This document shows positions 22,536-49,608 of a stretch of DNA of 53,989 nucleotides, piece by piece. Positions within the stretch are counted from its first letter, which is position 1, and each line of letters opens with the position of its first letter. The DNA comes from Halocafeteria seosinensis. Taxonomy: Eukaryota; Sar; Bigyra; Bicosoecida. The position numbers and the translations under genes were made by a program. Location of the stretch: the NCBI GenBank assembly GCA_001687465.1, contig LVLI01000363.1, positions 1 to 53,989 of the forward strand, given 5' to 3'. The notes under the pieces were generated by a model, which was given only the letters and a program-made list of their open reading frames with translations, did no database searches and was not told the DNA's origin.

Positions 22536-24633
22536 ATGGAAGATTCTGAAGAGATACCCAAGTTGCTTTCGATTAATCCCGAAGTTACGGAGATGCTTGA
22601 TGACCCACCGAAAACTTTACCTTCATTCGTGGTTGAAAACAACGGGGAGTGGATGTGCCGAAAGTAAGCAGTTTGCATGGAGTCGGCGGGTGACGAATAC
22701 TTTGAATCCGTTCGATTATATTCAGATGCAAGGGACGAAAGATCTACGAAGGTCATAACCACAGAGTATTCTACTACGACGGGAAATGGCGAAGGTATAC
22801 CAATTCTGACTTACTTTGCGGGTAACATGTTTATTGAGCCTAAGAATTTTGACCGACGCAGGAGATGTGCTTCGTGCGCTGGCAAAGTGCGCAAGCGGCA
22901 ACGCCAGGGAAAACGTAGCCGGGTAAGAAACAGACTTGCACGTATTCGTCTGGCGATCTGCTGCATCGCTCCTTCGTGTGCCATCCGGCAGAGCTCTTTT
23001 GGGCATTTGAAGAGCAGTGTCCCAAACCAAGCAGCAAAGGAGCATGTACCAATTTGTAAGTCAATTTCTCAAATATATTGAATATTGCGTAATAACGTTT
23101 TACCTCCGGGTGCAGATAAATTCGGAAATGATCCGCATGATCGATTAGTTCCTTTGAAGTCTGCCCCCTCACAACAGCTACAGCCAGACCAAAGGGCACA
23201 GGTTCGGCATGGTGTGATACATGTTCCAACAAGAGACATTGTCGCCTCGCCTGATTCTTACGAAATTCGGGAACATCACAAGAAACATATCCGTTTCTAC
23301 AGCCCGTTGCAGTCTGTATGCTACACGGCTGCAAAAAAAACTGTTGGAGGTGTAATCTACGACGTCTATCCTCTTATAGATATTGAACTAGCACCGTTGA
23401 CGGCCTTCAAATTTTTGGTGCGATTGAGCACGGTGTGTGACGAAAGAACCGCTGAGTCCGAGATAACACAAAGGATTGGACACTGCGCTCAACGGGGAGA
23501 CTCTTTAACTACTACGTTTATGCTTCGCTGGGACAAAGATCGCGTACAGGTATGGCAGATGCGATCGTCACATTGCTATATCACCTTGATAATTTTTTGT
23601 CACCAACGGTGTTATGGTTAACTGTTTCCAGCTTTGGCATGAGGATCGGCCTTTGCTCTCTACTCCAATAAATAGAGGCAGCGTGCCTTTGCAATCCGCA
23701 GGCTACTGTACCACCGCTAGAACCAATATTCGGGATTTGCAGCTTGTTGTCATCGGTAAGTCTCCACCCGCTATAGACCGCAGAGAAAATGAAACTACCC
23801 GGCTTCTTCCTCTAAATACAGAGAATCAATCCTTTCCAGAACCGGTTATTCATAGGGCGACATGCGCACAGGCGCTATTTAATCGGAGTGTCAAACATGA
23901 ACTGAGCAATAGGCCAGTTCTCATCGAAGGTTCTGAGCTAGGCAGTATCGAAGGAAACTCGACATGCCAAGGAGATGAATGGGCGGCGCATGCCCTGAAG
24001 GAGCTTCATAGACTATCCAAAGCATTTTCCCCAGAAGCGCATCTCACTCGCAGAGTTCCTCATGCAAGGTGTGGATCAGTGGCAATATCAGTGCGTAGTA
24101 ACTCACCAGCCGGCCTCATTTGTCGCCCTCCCCGGAATTGTTCGCCGTTTATCAGTGTCTGGGTGCCTCGAACAGTGACAAAAGATGGTTTCCAGCATGA
24201 GGTTACTCCATTCATTCAGTTCGTCAGTAGCACAGTTAACATTAACATGCAGCAGGCGAAGGAGCTCCTTGGTCCCCTGAAAGATTGGACAGTGAGCAAC
24301 TTTGTTGATTGGGAAGCACATAGGGAATCCTGGGATGCAGCCGAAACACAAAATGCAAAATGCGTTGAAAGTAATAATCTAAGCACAAGTCTTTTGCATG
24401 TGGCAAAACCAAACCACGCTGATAAGACTGAATCTTCCGGCACGACGGGCGGAACTGACGTTGCTATCCACTCCAAGACGAGTTCTCAATTTCTGGCGAT
24501 ACCAGCTGGCGCAACAGGGTGTTGCTTGAAATATCCTCCCGCGCAATTTCCAAAGCTATGCCCTCATGCCAATCAACTTGTGAAACAGACCAAGGCTACC
24601 ACCCTGAACTTTAGAGTTCTCCCTCAGCAATAA
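22536..24633 (+). CDS. C4-finger family protein 1 (unrecognised, putative nuclear)
   Basis: Seven exons (22536–22663, 22726–22794, 22862–22922, 22992–23055, 23116–23549, 23632–23755, 23822–24633) give 563 residues. The conserved PPKTLPSFVVENNGEWMCRK leads into a finger with Cys41-x2-Cys44-x23-Cys68-x2-Cys71 and a basic tail (KVRKRQRQGKRSR), which looks like a metal site plus nuclear signal. A conserved central domain follows (DPHDRLVPLKS, ASPDSYEIREH, KKTVGGVIYDVYPLIDIELA, FMLRWDKDRVQ). The C-terminal half has an IPT/TIG-like stretch (ARCGSVAISVRSNSPAGLIC, FISVWVPRTVTKDGFQHEV) and the signature AKELLGPLKDWTVSNF. I know no family with this layout. A DNA-binding or regulatory role is inferred only from the finger and basic region. 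Confidence 0.85.
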
Positions 24634-26749
24634 AAGAAGCCAGCGGGACCAGTAGGGGAACTCGGATTAATAATACAGTATCGCTATCAACGAGGATACA
24701 TTTCTGTATCATTGAAGCAATTATACCCGTGAATTTAACATTAGTTGTTAAGAACCTACGCAACTAGCCAGGGAGTTCCCGCAACGAATGCGTATGACTC
24801 ACGACTAAACTGTCTAGAATGTGAAACCAGAGTAGAAAACAACGAAAGAGGGAGAAAAGAGCGTAAGATCATCACTACTTACGCTTATCATTAAGTGCAG
24901 CCGTCGTCATTTTGGGTCTTTGTTTCAATACACATACGTTAGTGCGGGCACCCGCTGCAAGTTGCAAGCTGCTAGGACTAATTCTCAACTCTTGAACCAC
25001 TTAAGTACTGAATACGGGTACTGCTCTGCTCGGATGCTATGTGTTGGTATCTGTAAAGTGCTCTTCGAATCCTCAGGCACACTAGTAAAAATGTCACTGT
25101 GCGACAGGAGAATGGAGAATCGCCGCTTCATGTAATTACCCGATGGAGCGGGGTAGAGGGACTGGGCTAGAGGGACTGGAAAGAAAATCGTATAAACTGA
25201 CGGCTACCGCTGTGCACAAAGTAAACCGCTCTGGTTAAGATAGCGGATCTGGTCTCATTGGATGGTGTTCTACCACAACCAGGAGGAGGTGGGTGACGCA
25301 CCATCTACCGGAGATCCTGAGGCCTCCGCAATTGGCCGCAAAAGTTGCGGCAAAACTCCATACTGATCAGGTGTGAAGAAGAAAAATGACCGGACACTAG
25401 CGCTGGGGGAATGGTGCAGCTGCCACCTGTTTCCAGTAGCTCCGGGTTAATGTAGAATACGACCGCCAATTCATGTACGGTGCCTGTGAGTGGGGAACGG
25501 CTCTCCACGGTCTATGCTGCTGTCTTTACAATTGTACGTACTGTAGGTGTTCAGGTTCGCCCACAGGAGGAATCGCTTTGCCGTACCGTATACTGCTTCC
25601 CCCGGCGCGTTGACGCTAACATTGCTGCTGGGAGGTTCGCACACGCTTATTGGAAGAGCACAGTAGCTCCTTCCACTTGTCACCGCTCGAGATTGCCCGA
25701 ATATACTTGTGTCTGAATATGTACGCGTATCGACGGATAAACCCATCTTCCGCCACGGTTTGGACGAACACGTTGCGCGCTTTTCTTGCCTGGAATTCCA
25801 AGCTGTTCCATTCGAACTGTTCCAATAACTGCCTTTTCAAGCCCCAAGCGAGAAGGCGGGTCCCGAGGCTATCCACAAGTTCGCAAAGTAATCAAAGGAA
25901 ATCAGGGAGATTTAAACCTCTCCAGTAATCATCTCAGCGAGACATCGCGAGATGCACAAATGCCTCTGAGCTACACTGTACTGGCGGGAACACCTCTGTG
26001 CGGGCAGTACGAGAGATGCGATACCCTATGTTTCAGGAGGAGCACTGACCGAGAAAGCAAGTTCAAGACGGGAACATGCGGCCTTCCTTTAAGAGGGCAA
26101 GATTTGTGAAAAACTGCGTTTCTTGAGCGGCGTGTTCAAGTGTCGCTGGCTGTAACTAAAGGTTCTGACAGAGAGAGTATTGATCAGGCACGGTTCTTTG
26201 CAGCACTCAATGCATTATCTGATCGCGTCACGGTTTTTCAACAAAGATAAGGAGACCTCGTACTGATACAATAATTTGCTTTGAATGTAAGTACTTATCC
26301 GGTAGCAAGTCCTACTGGAAAGGACATGGACTTACACGCACGAGACTCGGCAAGCTGAAGCTTTTAAAATACATACCGAGGACAGAGAGGTTTACTGCTT
26401 GCTTGCTTTAACTTCCTGTAGGGTTAGGGTAAGGGTGAAGTTTGGTCCGCGGAGGTTGTCCCCGCGCCGTAGAACACTCAGTGCGCTCAAGTACGAGGCG
26501 AAGCGTGTATCACGACTTCTTAAGCAAAACTTAATTATTCGACACCCCGCTTTCTGAAAGTTCCTGTTTCTGATCCCGAGGGCAGACTCTATGTTTTGTT
26601 GTACCTAGTGTGATTCTGTGGTCCGGCTCTCGGATAACGGGATACTCACGTTTCTTTTGTTGCTTGGGACTTGTTAACTTCTGTGCAGTGTAAACGATAT
26701 AGTTTCAAATCCGTTCCGGTATCCCAGACAGCATCATCACGAAGTAAGG
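24634..26749. other. 2.1-kb spacer between finger-family genes 1 and 2
   Basis: No convincing coding exon, RNA gene or mobile element. A short telomere-like string (AGGGTTAGGGTAAGGG) occurs near 26420, too short to mean a telomere. Confidence 0.4.
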
Positions 26750-28887
26750 ATGGATCCTGACGGGAATGCCTTCAGACAGCACTTTCCACTCGACGACGAG
26801 GAGAATGTACCTAAGCTCTTGTCGATTGGAACTGACGTTCGTCAACTACTTGACGATCCTCCTGATACCCTACCTTCCTTTGTTGTAGAAAATAATGGCG
26901 AATGGATGTGTCGAAAGTAAGTCCTTAGTGACGAAGCAAGATCTTACCTGGATAAAAACCAAAGACCCTCTTCTCAGGTGCAAGGGAAGAAAATTTTACG
27001 AAGCACATAACCACCGGATTTTCTACTACGATGGGAAATGGCGAAGGTTGGCTAGCTCGTCCTGCCCTTTGTGGTTCCCTGGAACGGGTTGAATTCTTCC
27101 CTCTTGTACTGGGTTGCAGACGTTGCGCTTCTTGTGCTGGTAAAGTGCGTCAGCGGCAGCGGCAAGGAAAACGGAAACGCGTAAGTGGGCATCGTTTCTT
27201 CTCTGCTTACGTTTGGGACGTTGAGTGGTAGCGTTCGCCTTGTGCGCAGGACTATCTGGGGGCCGCCTCAGGGAGCAACACTGAGAAGAAACACATTCCT
27301 ATTCGTAAGTTTTGTAAGAGTTAGGCTATCGAAACTGTGTAGTATCGAAACAAGAATCATAACTACAGATCAGTTCGCGAGCGATCCTCATGACCGAGTG
27401 ATTCCTCTCAAGTCGGCTCCTTCTCAACGGAAGGAGGCGAATGACAACGTTCAGATTAGGCACAGTGTGATACACGTCCCTACCAAAGACATTGTGGCAT
27501 CTCCCGGGTCCTATGAAATTCGTGAAAATCAGAAGAAGCACATTCTGCTTTACGGCCCCATTCAACCACTTTGTTACCAAACGGCGGAAAAGACAGTTGG
27601 CGGCGTCATCTATGATGTCCTTCCTTTGATAAGAGTAGAGTTGGCTCCTCTCACATCTGCCAAGTTTTCAATTCGGTTGAGCTCCGTTCATGCCGAAAAA
27701 GAAACCGAATCTGAGATCTCTGACTCCCCCGACGAATTCACGATGTTTCTTCTCCGCTGGGACAAAGACAACGTGCAGGTAGGTTTTCTTCTGTATGTCC
27801 GTCAGACTCCTTGGCTCAGAAGAAAAAACCGATGTTTTATATGCGATTCAGCTCTGGCAAGGCTATGAACCAATGCTCTCCACCCCATTGAGAGAGAACA
27901 AAACGCCTCTGGAGTGTGCCGGCCCTTGTACGACCGTGAGGTCAAATATCCCCAACCTCCGTTTGGCGATTACTGGTAAGTTGGCGACATATATGATGCA
28001 CGATGAGATGTCTTCTAACGACTACGACAACTTCAGAGAATCATTCTTTTGAGGAGCCCATCATTGAAAGAGTACATGAAAAGCATTCTCCAGCTCCTGA
28101 AAACTGTCGAGGCAGCACAAGCGTTCTGGTGTTGGAGGGATCCGGGTTAGGAAGCGCAGGAGAAGCTGGAACTGGCACTTCCACAGATCAATGGGCGGCG
28201 AAAGCTTTGAAGGCAATGCAAGGAACACCGCATGGGGCTTCGCCTCACGGCGGGGAGAACAGTTTATGGGTATCATCGGTCAAATGTGGAACCGACACGT
28301 TGTCGGTCCTCAGCAGCTGTCCAACTAGGTTCATGTGCGAACGTCCTCGAGGCACCTCTGCCTTCTTCAGCGTTTGGGTACCTCGCAGAGTTACCAGGGA
28401 TGGTTTTCAACATGAGGTGACTCCTCACATCCAGGTGCTGAATACCAACGAGAAGATCAAAATGAGAGATGCGAAGGAGCTCCTGGGACCGTTGAAAGAC
28501 TGGACTGTCAGTAACTTTGCGACAATTCTCCCAGGAAACGTCTCGAACGGCCCAAGCCTCATACCGGACGGAGTTTGCGAAAGTGTTAGACATGGTGCAC
28601 AAAATGCTATGCATTTAGAGCTAGCAGCGAACAAGTTCTCACAACCTATTGTACCGGGATGTGGCCCGCTTTTCATTACCGGGAAGAACGCCAGTTTAAA
28701 AGACAAAGGAACAACAGCAATAATGTCAACAACAGCAAATGGCCTGAAATTCCCATCCAAGGATTCGCTTGACTATCCAGCTGCGGTATTCCCGAAGGTG
28801 TCTCCATCTGCATGCCAGGTGATGGGAGCTAACACTATACCACTCGACTTTCAAGTCATTCCGAAAAACTTTAAGGAAATGTACTAG
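26750..28887 (+). CDS. C4-finger family protein 2 (unrecognised, putative nuclear)
   Basis: Seven exons (26750–26916, 26978–27046, 27120–27180, 27250–27304, 27369–27778, 27852–27975, 28037–28887) give 578 residues with the same intron positions as member 1. Finger: Cys54-x2-Cys57-x23-Cys81-x2-Cys84, enclosing KFYEAHNHRIFYYDGKWRRR; basic tail KVRQRQRQGKRKR. Central domain about 118–295 (DPHDRVIPLKSAPSQ, IHVPTKDIVASPGSYEIREN, KTVGGVIYDVLPLIRVEL, FLLRWDKDNVQ, CTTVRSNIPNLRLAI). An IPT/TIG-like part at about 300–430 has the expected order: VLVLEGSGLGS, VKCGTDTLSVLSSCPTRFMC, then FFSVWVPRRVTRDGFQHEV. The signature AKELLGPLKDWTVSNF lies at about 441–456, followed by a variable tail. The donor of intron 2 (GTTGGC) is non-consensus. 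Confidence 0.87.
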
Positions 28888-30327
28888 AGAGCACGACATT
28901 GTTTGGTATTATCGAGTAGCACATTTTATCTCATTTAGCAGAGCGTTGATAACTGTTCACTCTTTCTAGCTATCAGTTTACAATGAGCAAATCGTTTTTG
29001 TCGCTGGTGCTAGATCACCAATCTTGTAAACCTGCGAAAGTGGTGCAATCGAGTGAGGAGCCAGTAGCCCCGGCTCTAGGCCCGGATCTGAAAATACTTG
29101 ACCCTCATTGCGAAACTTCGCTTTTTACTCTTTGGTGGTTAAAGACTCTAGACTTGCGTTTCCACAGCAGTTCAGTGTCTACACACATGTGACGGATAAC
29201 CCGCCGGCCAGAAACTTGACCGCATCCTCTTAACGGGGAGCGGTATGCGCCCGTGTTAAGCAGTGACGGGCCCACTGTTCCTCCAGCCTCGCTGACATGC
29301 GCCGTGGGGGAACGCAATACTGGTTTTGCTCACCAGAGGAGCTATCGAGGCTGTTTTCCTTAGGAATTCCCGGAAGTGGCCGTCGAACCGGCTATTCCTT
29401 TCAAAATCCTCCCGATTTACGTTACGATATTGAAAACAAGAGAGACAACCTACCATCAGCTCCTGTCGCCGCACAGACAGTGCTTTCAAAGACTCTTCGT
29501 GTCCTAGCGGGTTGAGCACTTCCCGACGGAGGCGGCTAAATCAATAGAACCGACGTGGACGGAAATCCCTTCGTCTTCACTATTATATTCGAAATAAATG
29601 TGTTTGTTGACGCGGTATTACTTGACAGTCTTGTATAGAGTCTATAGAACTCGGAGAGAGAGCGTTGTCTATGTTATTTGGGACCGAAAGACGGGAAATT
29701 TGATCTCCGAGGAGGTAAAAAACTCCGTTTAACGACTTCATTCACCTCATTTCTCGTCATATTTCGGCCAATTCTACCCTGTATAATGATGGGTGTTCCG
29801 GTATTCATGCTTGCTGGAAATCTGGAGCGAATTAGCCCAGTGGAAGTGGTGAACACTTGGAAAAACTACGGCGGGNAAGTCGGAAATCTAATGCGTTTGG
29901 TCTATTTTTGGCTATTAGTCACTCTTCATGCCCTGTATGTGGTCACAGGAGACCAGATGGTCAATCTGCAAGGATATTGTATCCATCCAAGCTTGAGTGC
30001 ATGCAAAAGGAGTCTACAATAGAGAGGGGAGCTCAGGTTCATGTCCCGGAGCATCCCCTTCGGCAACCGATTTCTGGCCAAAGTGGAGGATATGGAGCCT
30101 TTTACACCTTTCCGGAATCAAAATTCTTGGCGAACATGGCCATGCTGATACTGACAACCGTGTGGAGCTACTATGTGCGTGGGCATCCCTTGCGGAACAA
30201 GGGTTTTACGGTCCTTAAGACGAACTTGAGGAAGTCCGACAACTGTCAGCCCGAATGCCAGAAAAGCTGCCATAATGGAAAGCTGCGAGTATCGCAGGCT
30301 TTGATTCAAAAAAGACAGTTGTGTCCA
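28888..30327. other. Spacer before GLUG gene 2
   Basis: Holds dispersed-repeat copy 3 (about 29180). An open frame runs in phase with the GLUG gene from about 29857 and includes an ambiguous base near 29875. It shows no similarity to the sister gene, so I treat it as upstream sequence. Confidence 0.4.
29180..29225 (+). repeat. Dispersed short repeat, copy 3
   Basis: ACACACATGTGACGGATAAC, then CCGCCGGC and TTGACCGCATCC. It is a diverged version of the TGTGACAGATAGCCC core. The trailing TTGACC-x-CAT matches copy 1. Confidence 0.55.
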
Positions 30328-31983
30328 ATGTGGAGAAGCATAGGTGCATTTTTAACTGTGAGCATTCTGCTGCCTCCATATCACTCTGTTTCAGCGTCAA
30401 ATTTAAGAGACAAGATTATAGAGGGAACGGAAAAATGCTTCAATTATGTGTCTGAAGAAAAGCTGTTCCAGCTAAACTGTAGCGTAATTTGGACAGACGC
30501 CCCATGGACATATACGAGTCAACACTATATTTTTCTAAAGAATGGTGAAACGTTCGATGGAGGTACTGGCAACATCATTGATTTGAGTAACGTAACCGAC
30601 TTTCTTGGTTTGTTTGCAGTTGATAATGTAAATCCGTTTTCAGGGGCTCCACGTATTCGAAATGTCCACGTCAGGAACGGAACCCTAGCAGAAGGCGGTG
30701 GATTCATTGTTCGGCAACACAGCGCATTGGTAGTAATAGACTCCTGTAGTTCCTCGGGAATGATTACAAACTTTGGTGGTGGGATAAGTGGACAATTGGG
30801 GGGCCACAGAGGCAAAATGGAAGTTTCGAATTCCTACTCCACCGGGAAGATAGCGGGGATAGGGGCAGGTGGAATAGGAGGACAGCAAACAGCTTTTGAT
30901 GGCGGGGTGGTGCATATAACCAACTGCTTCTCCACGGGAGACATTGACAAAAGAGAAGGAGGTGGCATTGTGGGGGCACATGCCGGCGGAAGCCATGGTC
31001 GAGTTTATATAACGCGCTCGTATTCAACCGGGCAGCTTTCTGGTCCTGATAAGAATGGTGGAATCGTTGGTGCACAAGCTGCAAAAAATGGTTTTGTGCA
31101 TGTCAAGGAATGCTATAGTTTGGGAGCCATATCCGGAAAATGGTGTGGCGGCATTGTAGCTGATGATATAGCAGGCGAAGGGGGGACCCTGCATGTTATA
31201 GATTGTTACAGTCGTGGCATTATTAGTGGTACCGAAGCGGGAGGTATCTGTGGCGGGCACACAGGAGGCAGAAGNTTAGCAACGGGAGACGTACGTGTTG
31301 TAAACAGCTACGCTGCTGGTTCTGTAACAGGTGCACAAGCCGGTGGTATCCTTGGCAGTATACACGACGAGGCCACTGGTGCAGTGCAAGTGACTTATTC
31401 AGTATACCAAGATAACGCACCGTTCAACGGGGTACTGGTCGGGATTGGAAGTCATAAGCTTTCTAACGGAACCGAAGGTAACTCTGGAGACCTTCAAACT
31501 ATCAACGGAACTCTATATCATATCAACGGGACACAAGTCTGGTCAGACAAAGTTTGGGCTCTTCATACCAACGCGAGTAGCAACGGTCTGCCAATTTTGC
31601 GATTCCAGATGCCCGAGAATTCTCCCTCTCCTAGCAGTTCTCCAAGAAGCACAGCCAGTCCATCACCATCAGTCACCGGTATACCATCAGGTTCTACGCC
31701 ACGCTCATTCCACACGGAGACAAGCTCCCCAAGTCCTACCCCAAGTACCAGTGGAATTGCCACCAGTTCTAGCACTGCCAGCTTATCCGCCACCTTTACT
31801 CCCTCTGTTTCGGGATCTGAGTCTCAAGTATTTCGCGCATCGCCTTCCAACTCTCCCACTGAGGTTGCTTCAACACCCAGAAATTCTTCTGGTACTCAAA
31901 GAGAACACTGGAGTAGCCCTGGTAATCGTGCCACGAAGTTGGTACAGTCTCTTCCGCTGGTGGGATGCGACAAACACTCATGA
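30328..31983 (+). CDS. Secreted GLUG-repeat protein 2
   Basis: A single exon of 551 codons from the Met that begins a clean signal peptide (MWRSIGAFLTVSILLPPYHS). Mature N-terminus: a domain shared with GLUG protein 1 (CFNYVSEEKLFQLNC, GNIIDLSNVTDFLGLF, IRNVHVRNGTL). It is followed by about seven GLUG-type repeats (SYSTGKIAGIGAGGIGG, CFSTGDIDKREGGGIVGAHA, CYSLGAISGKWCGGIV). A closing segment (YHINGTQVWSDKVWALHTN, GLPILRFQMPE) leads to a Ser/Thr/Pro-rich stalk. One ambiguous base at 31275 leaves one residue unknown without breaking the frame. It is likely a glycosylated surface or extracellular beta-helix protein. Confidence 0.86.
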   Translation: MWRSIGAFLTVSILLPPYHSVSASNLRDKIIEGTEKCFNYVSEEKLFQLNCSVIWTDAPWTYTSQHYIFLKNGETFDGGTGNIIDLSNVTDFLGLFAVDNVNPFSGAPRIRNVHVRNGTLAEGGGFIVRQHSALVVIDSCSSSGMITNFGGGISGQLGGHRGKMEVSNSYSTGKIAGIGAGGIGGQQTAFDGGVVHITNCFSTGDIDKREGGGIVGAHAGGSHGRVYITRSYSTGQLSGPDKNGGIVGAQAAKNGFVHVKECYSLGAISGKWCGGIVADDIAGEGGTLHVIDCYSRGIISGTEAGGICGGHTGGRXLATGDVRVVNSYAAGSVTGAQAGGILGSIHDEATGAVQVTYSVYQDNAPFNGVLVGIGSHKLSNGTEGNSGDLQTINGTLYHINGTQVWSDKVWALHTNASSNGLPILRFQMPENSPSPSSSPRSTASPSPSVTGIPSGSTPRSFHTETSSPSPTPSTSGIATSSSTASLSATFTPSVSGSESQVFRASPSNSPTEVASTPRNSSGTQREHWSSPGNRATKLVQSLPLVGCDKHS

Positions 31984-34058: not shown

Positions 34059-34100
34059 CACACACACATATGTGACAGATAGCCCGACGGAAGGGTCGCT
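34059..34100 (+). repeat. Dispersed short repeat, copy 4
   Basis: An (AC)n stretch, then ACATATGTGACAGATAGCCC and GACGG. It includes the palindrome CACATATGTG. Confidence 0.65.
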
Positions 34101-34358
34101 CACCTTTTACCTCAGAAGCGCCTCCTGCCTGTAGCGTACGACTGCTTGCACGTTACCAAGACCCTATCACTCGGCCAAATACACTTCCCCATTACCCTAG
34201 CCAGACTACATGAGTATGTACCACTACTAGTTTCTCCCTTCCACTACTTGTACAACCGGAGTACTCGGGTTGAAGTTGCGGTCGCAGGATCGCGACTCGC
34301 AGGAATTCGAAAGATATACCCACTTTACAAGGTTTGATACAACATACTTGCTAGACCG

Positions 34359-35483
34359 ATGCAAAGGTTTCTTCCACAATTGGAGGAGATTCTCCTCCGG
34401 GATCCGGGATCCCGTGGGATCGCGGCTCTGGCGTGTCCTGGGCATTTATATCGTGCGGCGCATTCGTTCTGGAATTCTCCTTCGGTGCTGGTTCTCACCG
34501 GATTCCCCTGCTGCATGGAACACATCCCTCCGACAGAAAATGACGGCATTTCGGGTGCCTTCGCTATCGCACGCGCTGCTTCTTTATTGGGGAAGAAAGT
34601 GACAATTATCACGGATCAATGCAATGAAAGCGTTCTTCGAGCGTGTTTGGCCGAGAACTCATTTTTTCAACGGCATCCGAGTCAACCGGAAGATCAAGCA
34701 CTGCCACATGCACGTTCTCTGGTGGATGAACCTTCCGACATTGAATTGAAAGCGTTCCCGGCCGCTTCATCGTGGACGAAAACGGAGGATCGAGAGCTCC
34801 GGGAACTCGCATCCATACACGAATGCTACATTGCCATCGAACGTGCCGGGCGTGCTCGAGATGGAAGTTGGTATACCGTAAGTGACCAGTCTCCTATGCA
34901 TGTCGATTTGCTCTGAGTTCATCTGTCCACTGTGGCATCGCAGATGAGTGCCAAAAAGATGGATCGATTCATCGCTCCAATGGACCCTCTCTTCGAGTCT
35001 CTAGCTGAGGAATATGGAGCCCATACAATTGGCATTGGAGATGGTGGAAATGAACTTGGGTATGTCTCCTCGTTCGATATATTGGGTAGTATGTGACTGA
35101 GTTGCTTATTTGACACTGGTGGCAGGATGGGTACAGTGGAAGACTCAGTTCGAGGGCACATTACACACGGCAAGACGATTGCATGTCGTGGCAAAGCTGA
35201 AGCTCTGATTGCGGCAGGTGTATCGAATTGGGGAGGATGGGGGCTTTTAGGTGCTGCTTGGCTATATGGAGCTGAAACTGAACACGCGAAAGAGAGCAAG
35301 GGTCTCTGTCCTTTACTGCCTTCTCTGCTCCAGGAGCAGGCTCTGATGTTGGCTCAAGTCGATGCTGGGGCCCGAGATGGTACAACAGGGCAAATAGGAG
35401 ATTCTGTGGATGGTCTGCCTCGAAAAATTCATGAGGATGTACTGCAATCGATACATTCTCTTTCGATGAAACAAGAAGCATGA
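34359..35483 (+). CDS. D-glutamate cyclase (DUF4392/DGLUCY domain)
   Basis: Three exons (34359–34877, 34944–35059, 35126–35483) give 330 residues. The vertebrate mitochondrial enzyme converts D-glutamate to 5-oxo-D-proline. Family marks are clear: VLVLTGFPC and GAFAIARAASLLGKKVTIIT near the N-terminus, then CYIAIERAGRARDGSWYT, MDRFIAPMDPLFE, HTIGIGDGGNELGMGTVEDS, HITHGKTIAC, and GVSNWGGWGLLGAAWLY. Vertebrate DGLUCY carries an extra N-terminal DUF1445 domain that is absent here, so this is the stand-alone form seen in many microbes. The start is the first Met in frame. I see no clear organelle-targeting peptide. Confidence 0.9.
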
Positions 35484-37813: not shown

Positions 37814-40312
37814 ATGACGACAACTACCGAAGCGCCCGAAAGGCGTAACCATGAAGTCCATCGTGAGAGAAGGACCAAAACAATATCGGAGAAGGACAGG
37901 GAGGAGCCGATTCCCAAACTGTTTTCCGTCGGTCCCGCAGTGACTGGAATGCTCGATGATCCTCCTGATACATTGCCTTCCTTTGTCGTCGAAAACAGCG
38001 GGGCGTGGATGTGCCGAAAGTATGTGCAATAGACCAATTTAATTGTGGCATTGTTTGTATCCCTAGACAAGCACCGCTTTACTTACACCGTATTGCGGTT
38101 TCTCAATCACAGATGCAAGGGGCGGAAATTCTTTGAAGCCAATAATCATCGCGTGTTCTTCTACGACGGAAAATGGAGAAGGTAAGATTTTGTCGACAAA
38201 AGAGGATTAATTTGTTGGCTTGATTCTGTCTTGTTTCCTGACCTTCAGACGTTGTGCTCCTTGCGCATCCAAAGTGCGCCAGCGGCAACGGCAGTTGAAG
38301 CGGTCACGTGACTCTCAAGAGGCTCCTGGCGCTCCTGCCAGCGCTGAGAAATCTGACATTCCAATAAGTAAGTGCTTGACTTCTCTCCCCTTCATAAGTC
38401 GTTAAGAAAATTTCGGACGATCTGGATACTTCATCCCGCAGCTGAGTTCTCGACTGACCCGTATGATCGCGTGTTTCCTGTGAAATCCATGTTTTCGCAA
38501 AAGTCACACAGCCCGATGGCTCCTGTTCGGCATAGTGTGCTTCATATCCCAGTGAGCGACATCGTTGCAGCTCCTAATGCAGTTGAGATTCGCGAGAATG
38601 CTAAGAAGCATGTTAACTTCTACGGCCCACTCACCTCGTTGTGCTATAAGACCGCCGAAAAGACGGTGGGAGGGGCTATCTATGACGTATTCCCATACGC
38701 AAAACTGGAGATATCTCCTTTGACGACGAAAAAGTTTTCTGTCTGCCTTTCAACAATGTGCGATGCCCAGCAGACAGAGTCTTCGGTTACCTCTGCTGAG
38801 GAAGCAGGTTCTTCTGTAAGCGAAGAGCCGACAGCTTCATTTGTTCTTAGATGGGATCGAAGTACCATTCAAGTATGTCGGTTTAGTTTAGTGTGTTTCC
38901 TAACGCTTTTTATTCATCGGATTTATATTCTTCCGATTGCAGCTCTGGCATGATCAGCAACCGCTGGTGAGCGCCCAGTTAGCCGAAGTTAGCAGCAACA
39001 TCAGAGGTGCGCCTTTGTGTACAACAGTGAGATCAAATATTGAGAGTCTTCGCATGGCAATTGTTGGTATGTCCTGCTGCTCTCCCGATATACGGGGTCA
39101 CGTAAGCGCTGTATTTGTTTTTCTGTCGTTGGACTCGCAGAGAATCAGGCATCAGTAGAACCGTTCGTACATCGTGTTAATGTCACCGACGTAGCACCGC
39201 CCGAGTCCGGCAGAGTTAGTCAATGGAACACCAAAGCACTGTCGATCGAAGGAAGGGATCTAGATACCGCATCATCAGTCAAGGAAGACTATCACGAGGA
39301 CTACTGGGCAGTGTCAGCACTGAAGAACCTACAGAATTCGTCGTCTCCTTCCGACCAGCACCACCCTTCTTCGGCCTTAAAGCCTATTGTTCAAAGTGGT
39401 GATGAAAATCTTGCTCTTTTGAGTCGCTCGCCCTCTCAATTGCTGTGTACTTATCCCCATTCGTCTGAGTATCTCAGCGTTTGGGTGCCTCGCCGTACTG
39501 TGCGGGATGGATTTCAACACGAGGCCGTTCCGCATATTCAAGTGCTTGATACGTATGAGAAAGTTAATATGAGAGATGCTAAGGAACTACTTGGTCCTCT
39601 GAAAGATTGGACCGTGAGCAATTTTGTCAGGTGCCCTACTTCGGGTCCTCATGAACAAGCACCTGCCCCTGTTTCCATGAGCCAGCAGCAACCGGTTGGC
39701 CCACCGATGAGTGGGAGTGTCTCGCACAGTATGTACAGTAATGGGGCAGCGTCGTTGCCGATGCAGCATCAGACTCCGGTATCAGTCTCGGGCTACGCAT
39801 GGCAGAATGGTTATAACGCAAACCCTTCGGTCCCCATGCAGAGTCACTCAGCAGTTTCAGTTTGCGGCCGCATGGATCCTCCCAGTACCTCTAGAAATGT
39901 GCACTGGCAGAACGCTGATAGTGTTTACTACGCATCAGCTGCCCCATCTCCCAGTGGACAATACGAGACAAGTATGCCTTCCACAGGGACACCCAGTACC
40001 GTATACCAGTATCCTCAGCCTCAGTCCGTTCCCGCAGTACCGAAGGAGACTGCTCCAAGTCCAAGTGATAAGATGGACACTCATTTCGGACAGCCGATGG
40101 TCGTGTATGGTCAATATGCATCTCCTGCTGGGAATGGAGGACCATGTTACGTGTACATGGCAGCTCCTCCTGCCGGCTTGGTGTCACGCACTTACCCTCC
40201 CGCATATTTCCCGAAAGTTTCCCCTGCTACAAATGCGCCCGTCTCTCAAAACGGAGGTAGCACCTTTCAGATGCTGCATACGGGCATCGCTGCTGCACAC
40301 ACGAGTGCTTAA
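37814..40312 (+). CDS. C4-finger family protein 3, with long Ser/Pro/Gln-rich tail
   Basis: Six exons (37814–38019, 38113–38181, 38249–38367, 38442–38872, 38943–39066, 39141–40312) give 706 residues. The intron that separates exons 3 and 4 in the other members is missing; the two exons are fused in frame. Finger: Cys67-x2-Cys70-x23-Cys94-x2-Cys97 with KFFEANNHRVFFYDGKWRRR between; basic tail KVRQRQRQLKRSR. The central domain (DPYDRVFPVKS, VPASDIVAAP-like, KTVGGAIYDVFPYAKLEIS) and IPT/TIG-like part (YLSVWVPRRTVRDGFQHEA) are conserved, as is AKELLGPLKDWTVSNF. The last 200 residues or so are low-complexity Ser/Pro/Gln/Met/Tyr-rich, of the sort found in transcription activation domains or phase-separating tails (inference). 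Confidence 0.87.
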
Positions 40313-40383
40313 CGAGAGGTAGAATCCAAACAGCGAAACTAGTACTTTCAATTCACAACCGGAGAGGGAATCCGGCCAGATAT

Positions 40384-40412
40384 TGAATAGAATAGAATAT
40401 AATAGAATAGGT
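40384..40412. repeat. (GAATA)n microsatellite
   Basis: About six imperfect GAATA units just downstream of finger-family gene 3. Confidence 0.7.
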
Positions 40413-41229
40413 TAGATCAGAGTAGACAAACTAAGCTTATTGATGGCTAAGTAATGAATTCATACGCGGTACATATAGTACTGCCTTCTCAGAAAACGTG
40501 AATCAATTGTAGGTAGCATTGAGTGTATACGTCAGATTGTGGATTCCACCCAGTCTTTCCGCAGCGGGCACGCTGATTCTCACTAAATCGTTTACCATGT
40601 GCTTCCCATCACAGTCTTTCTGAAACTCTTTCAGAGCCACAAGATTGTATCAACTGCATTTCCAGCTGGAAAAACATTTCTTATTGCATGATAGACTGTG
40701 TGTCGTTGTGTAGCGGACGGCAACTGCGATTTTCGCATTTCCGAAGTCGCAACCTATCAACCTTCGGCCGTGTAGTAACTGTAAAACCTTATTCTGACGG
40801 ACCGCAATCGCTTCATCCACTCCACACAAGTTGGGAAGCACAGTCCATAAGCCATAAGAAGTAGCACCACTGAACAAATCGAACAATTTGAATAAGCTCG
40901 TTCCGAGAAGCTGTTGGTCGCTTCAACACCCCACCACCGGATCGGTGACAGCAGTCCTCTATAGTAATTCCAGGTTGCAAGTGTCATGTTCAAGGACAAT
41001 CGTTCAATAGTTTTGTTGCACTGGATTCTCGTCACGGGTACCACAGTGAGCCGATTCCGACATCGCAATTTATCGTATGTTCCGATAAATCATCCGTTAG
41101 CGAAAAGAACGTCACGTTGCGCGATACCTCAGTGGCTATTGCATGCTGAACACCCTTTGGCGAACCGTAAAGAGGAGAAAATGTTGCCGACACACTTGAC
41201 CTGAAGAACAATGGTGTCTCTTGAAAACT

Positions 41230-41975
41230 GAAACTCATTGACGGGGAGGCTGCTGGCGTCCGTCTGGCGCTTCCGGAAGAAGTGAATGGGGACGGAAGGG
41301 GAGCCGACGGTGTGGTTGAAAGTAGCTGAGGGGTAGCACTTCTTGAGGTCGTTCCGCTAGCGGATGGAAATGGGGATATGCTTCCTGAGTTGGACAGAGA
41401 TGCTGTTCAACAGCCGCTGTGGGTGAAGGACCCCCGGGTGTAAGAGCTGGTCACAGTCGCCGTAGACGAAGTTGTAGCAGTACGTATGGAATTCGAAAGC
41501 ACAGAACCGCTTCCTTTCGTGCTTCATATGACATTTTCTCACCTCTATATGCCGACAAGTACGTAGAGTTGGCCTCGTATTTCACGCAGCCTGCCCGTGC
41601 TACGAGTCGCATTTAACTTGTTCCGCTATCATTGCCTACTAGCGAGGCGGTGCGCCAATCAAGTCATCACGACCCTTATACAGTGAATACTTCACCTTGA
41701 TTCTACCACTTAATTCAGCCAATATGCTTCTAATGATTCCTCCTGCTTCTGAGTTCCGGACTACGATTTTGGAACCCTACGCAACATGCTTTAAGACTTT
41801 CCATCATAAGCATATAGCTTCCCGTAATATTTGTCAAGCTGTTCAAGTTGCCTATTGGCTTTACGTTGTTTCTTTTTTCGGTGCCCACCAAACTGTCTGA
41901 AGGTGCAAAAGCCCTATTGTAAACGGAGTAACCAACTTCAATACTACCTTCAGCATTTTGACTTTGCACAGCAAC
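41230..41975 (-). pseudogene. Relic of the 3' half of a GLUG-repeat protein
   Basis: On the minus strand the reading NAEGSIEVGYSVYN aligns with the post-repeat segment of GLUG protein 2 (ATGAVQVTYSVYQ). LTNITG is followed, after a frameshift, by GKLYAYDGKS, which aligns with GQPYRHDGIQQW of protein 1. Further downstream a Ser/Thr/Pro-rich stalk persists across frames (SGSISPFPSASGTTSRSATP, STTPSAPLPSPFTSSGSARR). Several stops and frameshifts interrupt it, and the repeats themselves are no longer recognisable. Confidence 0.65.
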
Positions 41976-42521
41976 AATAGAAAGAATAGTGCGGCCGTTT
42001 TTCGGGAGGAAGCTCCATCAGCATTGTTCGTGTGTTGGTGGCACTCGCTGCGTGCTAATAAATGGACGTGTTCTCTTACGCAACTTAACCCCAAAGTCGT
42101 CTGAGAAGGCAACGATGTTTCTTATACAATTTACTGGCACCGAGTCAAGAACACTGCACGACCGCATTTGTGTCTCGGTGCGGGGTGGCAGGCAAGTGAG
42201 GTGGCAGATGCGCTGACGTGGTTCTGGCCAGTATTTGTCTGTCACCGACATCCGCTGTGTAGCAATATTCCGATTCGGTTCTTTACATACGATGGATGAA
42301 TGATATACAAGTAATTTAGGCACCCTTCATTTTCATGGAGTCCGTTGCAACTTCCAGCGCCGTTCCAGAAGTGCGACCAACAGCCAGGAGTTGCGACGGA
42401 TCCAGTGTGATCGCATATACATCATAAATGCCAGCAGCTTGGAATGTAGTGACAAAAGGGAAGAGCGCATGCAGGTACATATTGACGCACACCCTGGAAC
42501 TGTTCATTCGCTCAAAAGACC

Positions 42522-43544
42522 ATGGTACACGGCAGAAGTGGAAGATGGCTCGGATGCTGCTGTTGTGGATTCTCAGAACGGGAATATGACGAACTTTTGG
42601 AGTATTTGGAGGATGACAGCGATTCACAGGGTGACATTGAGGGCGTTCGACAGATTTTAAAACCGTATCCGAAGGGCTTCTGCAATTCTATCAAATATCT
42701 GGTAAGTAAGGCGGTGGCTTCAAACAATGCGACCTCGGGCGTGGTTTCATGCACTGGATGTATGCATGCATATACAGAACGAGAGAACGCCTTTGCTCGT
42801 TGCGGCCACTGTAGGGAATACTGGAGCTGCACGCGTTCTTGTCTTGGAATTTGGGGCAAGTGTACGCGCGAAAGACTTTGTACGTCGGATGGACTCAACG
42901 GACATATTGCGGTGGCTAGAGTCTGGTACATCCATTACACTATGACTATGCAGAACGGATGCTTGGCATTACACAAAGCAGCGGAAAATGGGAAACTAGA
43001 AACGGTTAAAGCACTCGTCGAGGAACTCGGCTCTGAAAAAGATATTAACGCCGAAACACCAGTGAGTTCCTGTTTGCGCTATTCGATTCCTAGGTGCTGG
43101 GTCTTCGTCACCGGTATATATATATAACTTCCAGTTTCGCCAAACACCGCTCCATTTGGCAGCTCATCATGGGCATATAGAGGTTGTCCGACTCCTTGTC
43201 GAATCAGGTGCTGCTATTCATACCAAAGACAACGTAGGTTCTGTTGACATCACTCATGTAGATGTAGGCAATTGTTAAAGGACGTATCTGGACATTTGTT
43301 GCAGCGGAAAAGGACTGCTGAGGACTGTGCATCCAGGCAAGGCCACGAAGAGGTCGCCGAATACCTGAGAAACACTTTCGGGGAGGTATGAGTTACTCTA
43401 TTTCCATAGGGTTTGCTTAATATCTTGTCGAACCTTTTCCCTTTTATGCAGATTAGGACAATTGACAACCGAAATCATGACAACGCTTCATCTGGAACCG
43501 GTTTGCTCGCGAAGGCCAAGGACGAGTCCCATGAGAGTTCATAG
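42522..43544 (+). CDS. Ankyrin-repeat protein, small
   Basis: Six exons, all joined in phase 0 (42522–42701, 42778–42879, 42954–43061, 43135–43233, 43305–43385, 43452–43544), give 220 residues. After an acidic N-terminus (DELLEYLEDDSDSQGD), about one ankyrin repeat falls per exon: TPLLVAATVGNTGAARVLVL, LALHKAAENGKLETVKALVE, TPLHLAAHHGHIEVVRLLVE, TAEDCASRQGHEEVAEYLRN. A short polar tail follows. Ankyrin stacks bind other proteins; the partner here cannot be told. The N-terminal Met at 42522 is the first in frame. A further upstream exon cannot be excluded. Confidence 0.85.
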
Positions 43545-46500
43545 GTTTTCCAACGAGCTTCCGGGGCGTTCATTTTCTGGGTAGATGGTAGTGGGATCAT
43601 GCACAGGACAAGACTAGCGATATCGAATTGCAGATCGTTTAATTGGTTTTCTCGAAAACCTAGCGGGCACCGGAGAGTCTGGAACTATCTAGAAAAGTGC
43701 GATTTGATTGAAACGAGCTAAAGTCTTCTGTGAGAACCCCCGGATCGTCAGAAAAAGCAGGGTAAAGCATGGGAAGCAAGTAGTGCACGGTAGGATTTTT
43801 CGGTCATGGAGGACGCCCATCAGCGAAGCGCGGATGAACGGAACAGCGGAAAACTTGGCACAGCTGGCTACGAAGGACATGAAAAGCTCGAATTTGACGG
43901 TCCTCTAGTTCAAGACTGATACGTTTAGGCTCGTGTACTAAACCAGAAACATAGGAGCGCGTAGATGCTCTTGGTCCCATGCTTGAATCAACGTCCCACT
44001 TATGAACTTCATTGGAGGTGAATGGTGGCCCTCAATATCAGGAAGTACCTCGGATAAGTTCTCATGGATTCGTCGGCTTCAGCTTAGTGCTCTAAATAAA
44101 TTGCCCATCTCGCTGCTTAAGAGTTTTCGGGAATACTCTTTCTTAGCTAGCATATGCATACATGATTGTGAGGTGTTTAGATGGGTCTATCGATTGGCTT
44201 CAGTCTCTTTGCGTTTACGCCTTACCCGTCGACGGTGGTATTATCCATCATGGTTGATAGCGGCCGATGGACTGGTAGTATTCTCATCGTACTGAGAAAC
44301 CGAGAAGATTCAGATGGAGTGACAGTTGGTGTCAGTGAGGAAGAAGAACTTGAAGACGGTGTCGATGTACTGGTTTCAGTCCTTCCCGGTAACACTTGAT
44401 GAGGGAGATGGAGTCTTACTGACCGAAGATGGTGACGCTGTTTGAGAGGGTTCGAGATATTCGAACTCATTGGTTACCGGCACCCCAGCCCCACAATCGG
44501 CAAAGTTAATACCCGCAATTTCTGCGATATTTGCTCTACGATCAGCAACGCCCTCAGTTAAACTTGGTTGTTCCGGAACCACGCATTTGATGCGGACACG
44601 CGTGTGTACCCAGCTGGCATTGCTTTGCCCACAAGGCGGAATCTGCAAAAGAGTGCTGCGCTAACGATAAAATTGCTACCGATCACAGTGACCGTAGTTT
44701 GCTCATTTTTATAACCTTAAAGTGGATAATGGGCAGTCACATTAGGTGGTGCTGCAGAGATCAGTACTACGAGCTCCAGTACGGATACACCTTTTCCATC
44801 CCTTGCAACTATTCGCATCCGCTGAGTTTCGTCTTTGGATAGATCGTGAAGTCTAAGTAAAACGAACCTGTGTGGGGTTATTACAGGAGGAAAGTTTTTG
44901 CACGTGATTCCCTGGCGCTGTGAAGTCTTACATTATGACACGGTTCCTCGGTATCTTCGGCAGTCACTAGGAGCGTTGTGGGTCTTCCCGGAGGAAAACA
45001 TTGGGGGCATGTTGCTATTAATCCAAGGAGATGGAGACGTGAAAGTCGGAGGATGGACTTTCTCGCAAGAACACCCGCTTCCGCAGTCGCTGTTGCTAAA
45101 GCATGTTCTGCCACAAGTAGTATATGCAGTTTGCCCGTTGCAGAGCGCGGTGGGCAGTACAATGCACAAAAGGAAGTCGATACCGACTTTCGAATATCCG
45201 CCAGAGGCAACAACGTTTGTATACCACAGTTCGTTGTCACCACTGGCGATGCACGTCATTTCCCCAGCCGGACCCAACCATTTCCTTGCTGTTCGCTAGG
45301 CGCAATGTCAAAGGATCCATATCATCATCACCTGCATCGACAAAACCGTGATTTTCTCTCCTTCGATGATAGTTACGATAGGCATCATGGACGAAGCTGG
45401 AGGCGTATCCACCATACCGATATCATTGAGGTAAGGTCAACGTCAGCAAGATACGCCAACAGGAAGAGCCCCTGTATTGGATGGCACCAAGGCGGCAACG
45501 GTTTTCGAACCGCCACCGAAATGGACTTGCAGTGTTTGTTCGTGAAGGATATCTGTGTGTTACCTGAACTTGTCCCTCAAACTAATCCTCGCCTTCATTG
45601 ATGGAATCGATCGATAGCGCCGGAGAACTTTCATGCTCACCATCACCTAAATAAAAGCAGCAATAATCTCCATCTTTACCACATCTCGGTTCACCAAAAA
45701 ATGACCATCACCTGTTTGAAGCCAACACAATAGAAGATGAAACTACCATCTCCCAGGAAATGGGGCTTAACAGATACGATTGGAATTACTATGCAGTATG
45801 TAAGAACGTACCAGGCAATGCTACAGGTAAATCTCGCTGTGTGTGCGTCTGTCGACGACTCCCCGCCCGCTGTTCTGGGTTCTGTTCCTAAGGAGGTTCA
45901 AATTGAACGCTATTGTGACTGTGCTATTGATTTCCGAGCTTCGAAAATGAATTCCAACTGTAGGCATACCCGAATTCGAATATCACCCGACGTACTGTGT
46001 GCCCACCTTTCGCTGTCTTACACAAGCATGCATGAAAACCGGGAGGAAGAGAAAACTCTTCCTCACAGCACACTCTTGAACATTTTGAATAGGTCATGAA
46101 GAATGCTCAAGCAGCTCAACCAGACAACACTGACGTTATCGCAGACATTGTTGATTTGGATAGCTCTATCCATGGAAAGGACTCCAGGCTTGGTATTCTT
46201 TCGTTGTTGTTTCGTGCTGCATTCTCACCATAGAAGTCTACAGCTGTACATGTACATATGCTACTTCTATTCTCGAAGGAGCCCATTTGCTCCAGCTGAC
46301 TCAGTGTTGAGTTCTCTAACGCTTCTGATCACTCTTGCTTCTTCACTCCAGACATACAGGTACCGGTGGTTGAAATACATTCCAAGGACGTGTCTTCCGA
46401 CGGTCTACACTTGCTTTTCCGAGTTGGAATTTATAGGTATCTATGTGGTTACACGTGCTAGTAAAAAAAACTTGAGCCCCAAACAATTGAACTTCCTAGT

Positions 46501-47342
46501 GCATACCATTTACCCCTCCTGCTGGTTGCTCTGGGTGTCCGATTCAACTTTTGTCGCTCAACACGTGGATACTTCTTTTTTCTGCCAGCTATTCCCGGCT
46601 CTTTCTACCTGGTAGTTATTAGTTCGCGTAAATGAATGCGCTATCGTCATCCGAATAGTCCTTTATGCAATACCCTACGCTTCGTTATAACGTCATCGAT
46701 CTGAGCCTTCCACGCTGTCAACACGTGTCAGTCGGGATGAGTGTTTATCTAGATTACACCGACAATTGTAGGGTTCAAGAACCATATCAGCTACTACATG
46801 ACTTGACTACCAAAGGTTTGTCAGACACTGAGGTTAAACCTTTATCATTCTCGGTCGGAACTTGTCTGAAGTATACTGCACTGGGTCGGGTCAACTAACA
46901 GTGCTCAACTGCAACGAAGCGAACCATTTGGACCCCGGAACGGTAGTCCGGAGATTCAGATCTACTACTGTAGCATTTAGGCGCACACGTCATTTGCCAG
47001 CATTCAGGATCCAAACCGCTTCCACAAATATAATTAGTATCCAAAGGTGCATCAAAGTTGTAAGTGCCCTCTTTAATACCACAGGCAAACAAGAGTCGCT
47101 CGGGTGTGGGAGTGTAGGTGGGCTTGTTGGTGTTCTACGGGATGGTCTGCTGGAGGATACAGCTGTCTTACAACACCCCAGGATGTATCCATGACACTTA
47201 TGCAAGGACACATAAAGCAAATTGTTTATTTGTTGTCAAGCAAATAAGGCCTAGTAGTGGGAAAGGATCAATTCGTTACCTTCATTTTTCTTGTAAATTG
47301 TGTACCAGGTCCGGAGGGTAGAGAATCTGGAGATCCAGCATC
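43545..47342. other. Relic-rich spacer before finger-family gene 4
   Basis: Contains the IPT/TIG relic at about 44222–45560. Unassigned open stretches include 45737–46099 (plus, 120 codons), a possible exon near 46358–46430 (plus, reading VPVVEIHSKDVSSDGLHLLF) and 46895–47145 (minus, PTYTPTPERLL then a Cys-containing stretch). None is recognised. Confidence 0.35.
44222..45560 (-). pseudogene. Decayed extracellular IPT/TIG-domain protein
   Basis: On the minus strand several frames together read as IPT/TIG-type immunoglobulin-like domains: QVHFGGGSKTVAALVPSNTG, GITCKNFPPV, and APPNVTAHYPL followed by a TAA and then EQTTVTVIGSNFIVSAALFC. After a frameshift come RIKCVVPEQPSLTEGVADRR and INFADCGAGVPVTNEFEYLE. 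It ends in a Ser/Pro/Thr stalk (SQTASPSSVSKTPSPSSSVT, then STSTPSSSSSSSLTPTVTPS in another frame). The TVTV-x-G-x-NF and C-x-x-P hallmarks are typical of the family. The in-frame TAA near 44713 and at least two frameshifts suggest a dead gene, though some breaks could be unrecognised introns. Confidence 0.55.
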
Positions 47343-49608
47343 ATGGGGAAACCGATTAAGAGCCCCACCCGCCTCAAATTTGACGAGGGCAGTTGCTGCA
47401 CATCATGCTCTCCGAATTTATCCCAAAATTTCACTCAAAGCCCTCCAGTCCTAGGGGGCGTCCCACGCAAGCTAGCGAAAGCTTTGGAAGATCCGCCGGA
47501 GTCACTGCCGTCCTTTGTAGTCCAGCAAGGTGGAAAGTGGAACTGTCGGAAGTACGCCTTTGTTTCTCCCCCAATTACGGGACGTTCACCGCAACTTTTA
47601 GGCAACATATGTTGTCTTGATATTTCTACCTACAGGTGTAAAGGACGGAGATTTTCCACGTCACAAAACCACAGGTTGTATTACTACGATGGCCAGTGGA
47701 GAAGGTATGCTATTAGTACCTGTCCTTGTAGAAATTTGTTTTGGCCTAGTTCTCTTTTTTCTTCCTCTACACAGGCGATGTGCTGTATGTGCTTGCAAGG
47801 TTCGTACCCAGGTGAACACCGGAAAACGTGGCAGGGTAAGGCGCAATTGGCAATGTTGTATTGTCCAGTAGTAGTTAAGCTGACATGGCGTTGTTGCTCA
47901 AAGCAGGCTAGACAAGAAGAATTGGTTATAGGAAGCACATCGGAGACTCGTGAAAAGGACGACATAGATATGAGTGCGTGTAATATCACTACATTTCTGT
48001 TGCGTTGGCCACCCTCGTCTTGACCGTCTGTTCTATGTAACCACAGCCGAATATTCCAATGTCCCGCACGACCGGGTATATACGTTGAAAACGATACAGA
48101 ATGAAGGCCTGGATACAAATGCCGCTGTTGTGAGATACTCTCATATCGAGATGAACCCTGCGGACATACGAGATAGCAACGCAGAAACTGGTACATATGT
48201 GCATTTCTATAGTATGCCTGAATCCTTGGAAACCCAACTAGACGACAAAGTGGTGTACAATGTGTCTCCTTTCATAACCATAAGAGCGTCCATGGACGGC
48301 TCCTCGTACAAAATTACGGGACAAACTCAACGCGACGAGGCGGCAGCATTGCTTCCCCCTTCCGCAGTGTCTAAGATACGGCTAATGTTAAGATGGGACA
48401 ATACCAGCGTGGAGGTATGACGTCATCTGTTGCTGCCCTGTGTTTTCCATGGATTTACAGATGTCATTGGTGGCACTTTGACTACGTTTTCCGCAGCTCT
48501 GGAACCATGGCAACCGCCTGGTCGCTATGAAAATTGACGCAAGTTTTCAGGAAGACTCCCGCGCCCCTATATGCTATGTTGTTCGATCAAATATCCCTTC
48601 ACTGCGATATGAGCTGCAAGGTGGGCATTTCATTCGATGATATAACATGTTTCCAAGTGCCGACACATTGTTTGGAAATCCGGGTACAAATATGCAGAGA
48701 CTGACTTCAAAGAGGTCCCTTCTGTTACCAACGTGGAACCTTACACTGATGATGAAGCCAATGAGGAGAATAAAATTGTCATCGTAGGTCAAGGGTTTGG
48801 AAAAGCACCTAGTCGCCCATCGGGGAATTTGTCCGGACATCAACTTGCGGCAGAAGCGTTGAAGCAATTATCTTCTCCATCCTCCTGCAGCTCAACCACA
48901 CAAAGAAGTGATTGTACCGTGATTTGCGGGACAAGTTTGGGCGACGAAACATTGAAAGTTTACCATCGGACTCCGCAGAAAATTATATGCCGTTCTCCTA
49001 GAACTCCTGGTGGCCTAGCCGTGCGAATGCATCTCCCTTTATCCGTTCCCAAACTCAAAGTCCTCGATACTGATCAAACGGTGGCAGAAAAGTCTCAAAC
49101 CGGTGACACCGCCACAGGCCGACCTTACAAGCAACTTGACAGCAACTCTATATGGATTCAAGGATCTGAGTCGATTGAGCCATTAACACCGGTATCGGAA
49201 GAAACTAAGTCGCTCCAGAGTTCCGAGTGTCTGATATCGTTGGAAGACTCCTACCATCAGCAGATTGATGGTTGTTCATCCACAAATGATTCTCTTTCAG
49301 TAACTGGAAAACATTTGTCACCTTGCTGTGGCAACGAAGAAGAAGTAGAGCAAGCCAGATGTACTCTCTCTCTTACCCTTCCTTTTCTTTCGTGTCGGGC
49401 GTCCGGCCAGTTGCGTCTGACAAACATGGAGAGTTTCACCTTAAATTCAAAGCCCCATCCGCACCTCGAGAATGCTGACCAATTTGTAGGCACAAGCTTT
49501 TGCAAGGAAGCTACCATAGAGGCGCAACCTAAGAACAAGCCCCCATGGCGACCTGTAGAGTTGACAACCTCACTTAGGTGTCTAGGTAAACTTGCTTTGC
49601 TCTATTAG
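47343..49608 (+). CDS. C4-finger family protein 4, divergent member
   Basis: Seven exons (47343–47551, 47636–47704, 47775–47835, 47907–47973, 48047–48414, 48497–48620, 48698–49608) give 602 residues. Intron positions match members 1 and 2. Finger: Cys68-x2-Cys71-x23-Cys95-x2-Cys98 (RFSTSQNHRLYYYDGQWRRR between), preceded by DPPESLPSFVVQQGGKWNCR. The basic tail is weaker (KVRTQVNTGKRGR). The central domain is clearly related but diverged (VPHDRVYTLKT, DDKVVYNVSPFITI, LMLRWDNTSVE, CYVVRSNIPSLRYEL). The IPT/TIG-like part is only partly kept (VICGTSLGDETLKVYHRTPQ, KIICRSPR). The LLGPLKDWTVSNF signature is absent, and the last 200 residues match no other member. It may have a specialised role. Confidence 0.83.

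Follow-up and report, generated by a model that had tools for sequence, protein, structure and literature searches.

A family of C4-finger proteins in Halocafeteria seosinensis: candidate nuclear regulators with an IPT/TIG-like domain

Several families of gene regulators, among them Rel/NF-kB, NFAT, CSL (RBP-J) and EBF/COE, combine a beta DNA-binding domain with an IPT/TIG domain, which in Rel, EBF and CSL proteins serves for dimerisation or for partner binding. Other IPT-containing regulators are represented by CAMTA in plants and by Spt23/Mga2 in fungi; the best-known regulators with a beta DNA-binding domain and IPT come from animals, fungi and plants, and IPT domains occur outside the nucleus too. 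Among C4 fingers, those of the GATA type have the form C-x2-C-x17-20-C-x2-C and those of the Dof type C-x2-C-x21-C-x2-C; DnaJ proteins carry a J domain together with four CxxCxGxG repeats.

The genes described here (ZF1–ZF4) lie in a stretch of 53,989 nucleotides, hereafter the window, which is the whole of contig LVLI01000363.1 (C265) in the assembly of the bicosoecid H. seosinensis (30.6 Mb, 605 contigs). Their proteins resemble those of the Rel/NF-kB, NFAT, CSL and EBF/COE group in that a beta-rich domain appears to be followed directly by an IPT/TIG-like domain, and chains of RBPJ, EBF and NFAT are neighbours of a weak structural model of exon 7; they differ from that group in having an N-terminal C4 finger instead, in an insert of about 35 residues within the IPT-like domain, and in the lack of any sequence match to the DNA-binding domains of Rel/NFAT, EBF and CSL (none in the four whole proteins and five central domains at an E limit of 10, the HMMER filters dropping most matches above E ~0.1). 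Because these domains gave no match, the family is regarded as analogous to the Rel, EBF and CSL proteins, not as a member of their group. With CAMTA and Spt23/Mga2 the likeness would be one IPT domain in a protein presumed to be an intracellular regulator, the difference being that no CG-1, ankyrin or IQ match was found in ZF1–ZF4.

Gene models, members and selection

The four intron-rich models, spliced by hand at GT..AG sites, encode proteins of 563–706 residues on the plus strand, and the spliced frames are open throughout (Table 1); the cluster spans positions 22536–49608, exactly from the start of ZF1 to the stop of ZF4. Intron phases are 2,2,0,1,0,1 in ZF1, ZF2 and ZF4 and 2,2,1,0,1 in ZF3, so that the conserved intron positions described in the first-pass annotation hold with the exception of one phase-0 intron, missing from ZF3. 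Introns were chosen as GT..AG, hence all 23 are so by construction; the least certain join is at the donor of intron 4 of ZF4 (GTAATA), and retention of the intron would break the frame in 20 of the 23 cases. By BLASTP, ZF1–ZF3 are 47.9–52.0% identical to one another and 28.1–33.1% identical to ZF4, and every pair among the four gives E at most 5e-40, far past chance; a chance motif as the explanation is ruled out by these values.

A second copy of ZF1 is found on contig C382, 93.7% identical over 4.5 kb; of the aligned sites, 5.1% differ in exons and 8.4% in introns (from 1.2% to 12.1% in single introns). The frame of this copy is intact and free of internal stops, GT..AG is kept in all six introns, and three gap positions fall in exons (all in the last one, with the frame kept) and four in introns. 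dN/dS for the pair is 0.26 overall, with 0.09 over the first 292 codons, comprising the finger and the central domain, versus 0.47 over the remainder; purifying selection is strongest on the finger and the central domain in this, the one pair measurable. Retained introns or pseudogenes are ruled out by the frame breaks, the intact ZF1 copy and dN/dS, and the evidence supports a family that is real and under constraint. In pieces longer than 200 bp, C382 shares with the window just the 4.5 kb block, an adjoining 0.3 kb and 0.2 kb elsewhere, so that it may be either an allele or a duplicate.

When the genome was queried with ZF4, two weak places were retrieved, on C320 (E 0.02) and C457 (E 0.04), from which a fifth, divergent member was read without its exon 4 and gene ends. 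This member carries CTRC-x23-CAPC, with the finger spacing of ZF1–ZF4, and its first CxxC is likewise interrupted by a phase-2 intron; its central domain is related to theirs, it has an RSNV exon whose phases match, and its last exon, judged by eye, is unlike an IPT domain. The two contigs differ by 0–3.6% per exon or intron over this gene, and 15 gap positions separate them in its last exon. Since a search with the core of the fifth member gave C320, C457, C265 and C382 only, five distinct members are counted, two of which (ZF1 and the fifth) are present twice. The cluster and the recent ZF1 copy support the local expansion proposed at first pass, though a divergent member is located on other contigs.

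Table 1. Genes of the cluster and domains of their products (positions in the window)
Feature	Positions	Strand	Description	Basis
ZF1	22536..24633	+	563 aa; exons 22536-22663, 22726-22794, 22862-22922, 22992-23055, 23116-23549, 23632-23755, 23822-24633	spliced open frame; 93.7% identical copy on C382
ZF1 C4 finger and basic tail	22656..22922	+	exons 1-3; phase-2 intron splits first CxxC	
ZF1 central domain	23118..23755	+	exons 5-6; nothing convincing in Pfam or among PDB sequences	
ZF1 IPT/TIG-like domain with insert	23836..24225	+	not significant alone	alignment to paralogues
ZF2	26750..28887	+	578 aa; exons 26750-26916, 26978-27046, 27120-27180, 27250-27304, 27369-27778, 27852-27975, 28037-28887	spliced open frame
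ZF2 C4 finger and basic tail	26909..27180	+		spliced model, finger alignment
ZF2 central domain	27371..27975	+	exons 5-6; exon 5 modelled all-beta	
ZF2 IPT/TIG-like domain	28051..28440	+	~37-residue insert between second and third strand	Pfam TIG 17.8 bits, E 0.0034, insert removed; weak structural model, many of its neighbours IPT-bearing chains
ZF3	37814..40312	+	706 aa; exons 37814-38019, 38113-38181, 38249-38367, 38442-38872, 38943-39066, 39141-40312	spliced open frame
ZF3 C4 finger and basic tail	38012..38309	+		spliced model, finger alignment
ZF3 central domain	38444..39066	+		alignment of central domains
ZF3 IPT/TIG-like domain with insert	39155..39547	+		Pfam TIG 18.5 bits, E 0.002, insert removed
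ZF4	47343..49608	+	604 aa; exons 47343-47551, 47636-47704, 47775-47835, 47907-47979, 48047-48414, 48497-48620, 48698-49608	spliced open frame
ZF4 C4 finger and basic tail	47544..47835	+		spliced model, finger alignment
ZF4 central domain	48049..48620	+		alignment of central domains
ZF4 IPT/TIG-like domain with insert	48712..49065	+		Pfam TIG 19.5 bits, E 0.001, insert removed

The cluster is not a strict tandem array, as its genes are separated by other ORFs in which domains or repeats can be recognised. Large proteins with GGI/TG-type tandem repeats, which we take to be GLUG-like, and Ser/Thr/Pro-rich tails are encoded at 16803-18554 (-) and 29857-31983 (+), and fragments with such repeats at 11293-11667 (+) and 50061-50489 (-); neither of the large ORFs matches Pfam at E 0.01, and a similar frame on L036 adjoins an elongation-factor match. 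The ORF at 34359-34916 (+) matches the C-terminal domain of D-glutamate cyclase-like proteins (PF14336, E 7e-31). Upstream, three tandem CNNM/CorC-like gene copies can be read from the ORFs at 393-8212 (-), two ORFs of one copy matching CBS above the Pfam cut-off and the CNNM2 CNBH-type and cNMP-binding domains below it; they are followed at 8469-10858 (-) by a Ku70-like gene with Ku core, C-terminal arm and SAP above the cut-off, the Ku70-like N-terminal match falling below it in a neighbouring ORF. Elsewhere in the assembly, 18S starts on six contigs (C98, C106, C159, C205, C346 and C569), each time 0.1-0.6 kb from the contig end toward which it runs, as with dispersed or unassembled rDNA; a search of the assembly for the LHC family gave no match.

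The C4 finger and the central domain

The pattern C-x2-C-x23-C-x2-C, reported at first pass as common to the four plus-strand genes, stands in all four spliced open frames, a phase-2 intron splitting the first CxxC in each; the first pair, CRKC, is joined by CASC in ZF1 and ZF2, CAPC in ZF3 and CAVC in ZF4. The consensus over all five members is PP..LP.F.....G.W.C..CK.R......N.R...Y.G.WR.RCA.C..KV. Several of the sequences originally quoted were idealised: FYYDGKWRR within the finger reads FFYDGKWRR in ZF3 and YYYDGQWRR in ZF4, and, in the central domain, TVGGVIYDV reads TVGGAIYDV in ZF3 and ZF4 is without TVGG, LRWDxxxxQ becomes LRWDNTSVE in ZF4, and RSNI becomes RTNI in ZF1. Similarly, of the Arg/Lys/Gln-rich tail assigned to the family, the basic character is common to all, its Gln/Arg richness being weak in ZF4.

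Searched against a copy of Pfam with models up to 2025, the finger gave sub-threshold matches only, and a profile search against PDB reached a best E of 2. GATA and Dof fingers resemble it in the form C-x2-C-xn-C-x2-C and in the aromatic and basic residues between and after the cysteine pairs; they differ in spacing, which is x23 here in all five members, and none of the five fingers matches GATA, Dof or RanBP2-type models in Pfam. That the spacing exceeds that of a GATA finger is borne out.

The central domain comprises 162-184 residues, with 12 positions invariant across the five members. Against Pfam, nothing convincing was retrieved (one member matches an unrelated family weakly, E 0.13), and the best E against PDB sequences was 1.1. 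Exon 5 of ZF2, folded alone from four sequences, was modelled as all-beta (pLDDT 64.6, pTM 0.58); the model is incomplete, as an intron cuts the central domain, and no structural match to it stands out. A confident match of finger and central domain to a named family was looked for and did not occur, and with neither part matched in Pfam above the cut-off the layout remains, as first proposed, one that could not be matched to any named family.

The IPT/TIG-like domain of the last exon

The last exon carries an IPT/TIG-like domain, split by about 35 residues, that had been missed in the first-pass annotation. None of the four intact last exons matches TIG in Pfam (PF01833, cut-off 20.9 bits); when the insert of 34-37 residues, which includes a predicted helix, was removed by hand from the four genes, at a cut chosen with TIG in mind, TIG became the sole Pfam match in ZF2, ZF3 and ZF4, each below the cut-off, with none in ZF1. 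In hhalign comparisons with the genome's own TIG domains, the exon gives 86% probability with the insert removed (34% in global mode) and 16.6% when intact; the score of 33.4 compares with a shuffle maximum of 17.8, and none of 150 column shuffles scored as high in either mode.

Because the cut had been chosen with TIG in mind, a blind deletion scan was run, in which none of 100 shuffles reached the score of ZF3 or ZF4 (indeed, ZF4 attains 26.2 bits against the genome's own TIG profile, the best shuffle 8.2); ZF1 and ZF2 are not above shuffles, 38 and 22 of 100, respectively, reaching their scores. The weak exon-7 model has, among 50 structural neighbours, 28 chains from proteins with IPT/TIG domains (RBPJ/CSL, EBF, Met, plexin, NFAT and CGTase/amylase), many of these chains being repeats of one protein; the remaining 22 are kinases, racemases and others with similar Z. 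Taken together, these comparisons support the presence in the last exon of an IPT/TIG domain scoring below the Pfam cut-off.

In the genome at large, 150 scored TIG stretches were obtained from 219 candidates; the majority sit in open frames 1,000-10,000 codons long (e.g., on C4, C24, C161 and C279), which indicates a large family of giant TIG-repeat proteins.

Candidate function and alternative explanations

Genes, motifs and domain order are established: an N-terminal C4 finger with its Arg/Lys-rich tail, presumably zinc-binding, precedes a central domain predicted to be all-beta, the IPT/TIG-like domain and a variable low-complexity tail, long and Ser/Pro/Gln-rich in ZF3. Because several known gene regulators have a domain like the C-terminal one, the proteins are probably nuclear gene regulators, and a nuclear, DNA-binding role would be strengthened by its presence; for a small family of nuclear, zinc-binding and DNA-binding regulators, in which zinc, location, DNA binding and dimerisation are all inferred, a probability of about 0.55 is estimated. 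DNA contact would fall to the finger and its basic tail, to the central domain or to both; on the example of Rel, EBF and CSL proteins, the IPT domain would dimerise or dock partners, and cofactors may be recruited by the Ser/Pro/Gln-rich tail, which is most evident in ZF3. Counted in favour are the finger residues invariant in five of five members, the dN/dS of 0.09, the TIG match in three of four genes, the hhalign result, the blind scan for ZF3 and ZF4, the 28 IPT-bearing neighbours and the lack of a membrane-like segment (highest 19-residue hydropathy 1.37); against it are counted the finger and central domain unmatched to any DNA-binding family, the sub-threshold TIG scores and their dependence on removal of the insert by hand, the blind scan for ZF1 and ZF2, the 22 non-IPT neighbours, the fifth member without an IPT-like part, the occurrence of IPT outside the nucleus as well and the many TIG stretches in very long frames of this genome.

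The same absence of a DNA-binding match would suit nuclear or cytoplasmic adaptors, with a zinc-ribbon finger that binds protein or ubiquitin, beta and IPT domains that serve protein-protein contacts, and no direct contact with DNA; the G-x-W-x-C-x2-C start of the finger, invariant in all five members, recalls RanBP2/NZF fingers. Adaptors of this sort are nevertheless considered rather unlikely, given that no RanBP2-type match was obtained and that the basic tail and the order of beta domain and IPT suit DNA-binding regulators better. The zinc-ribbon-like cysteine pairs, together with the Arg/Gln-rich tail of ZF1–ZF3, could also belong to RNA-binding or RNA-processing factors with an arginine-rich, RNA-contacting tail, yet this is quite improbable: no RNA-binding family was matched in Pfam, and RNA-binding proteins are not known as typical carriers of IPT/TIG domains. 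The best Pfam match of the finger, to the cysteine-rich domain of DnaJ (E 0.0039 and 17.8 bits, in two of five fingers), and its CxxCxG-like knuckles suggest a cysteine-rich protein that is chaperone-like or related to DnaJ; membership of DnaJ is ruled out by the score, well under the 32.7-bit cut-off, by the presence of two CxxC pairs, half the number in DnaJ, and by the lack of a J domain match, and even a looser relationship is very improbable.

Compatible with the nuclear-regulator reading, and concerning only its novelty, is the case of a lineage-specific regulator family already described, to which we give a limited chance, well short of an even one: the comparison covered Pfam and PDB, and the divergence of the fifth member speaks for an old family, but no Pfam model covers finger or core above the cut-off, and nothing fitting was found in those parts of the literature on C4-finger or IPT families that were accessible. 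More tentatively than the regulator role itself, it can be proposed that finger and central domain constitute a new DNA-binding unit, unrelated to known families and joined to IPT independently of Rel, EBF, CSL and CAMTA, forming a lineage-specific class expanded in this eukaryote. If true, the IPT module would have been reused with another DNA-binding unit in an apparently non-photosynthetic eukaryote, and with its five proteins the family offers a defined set that can be tested.
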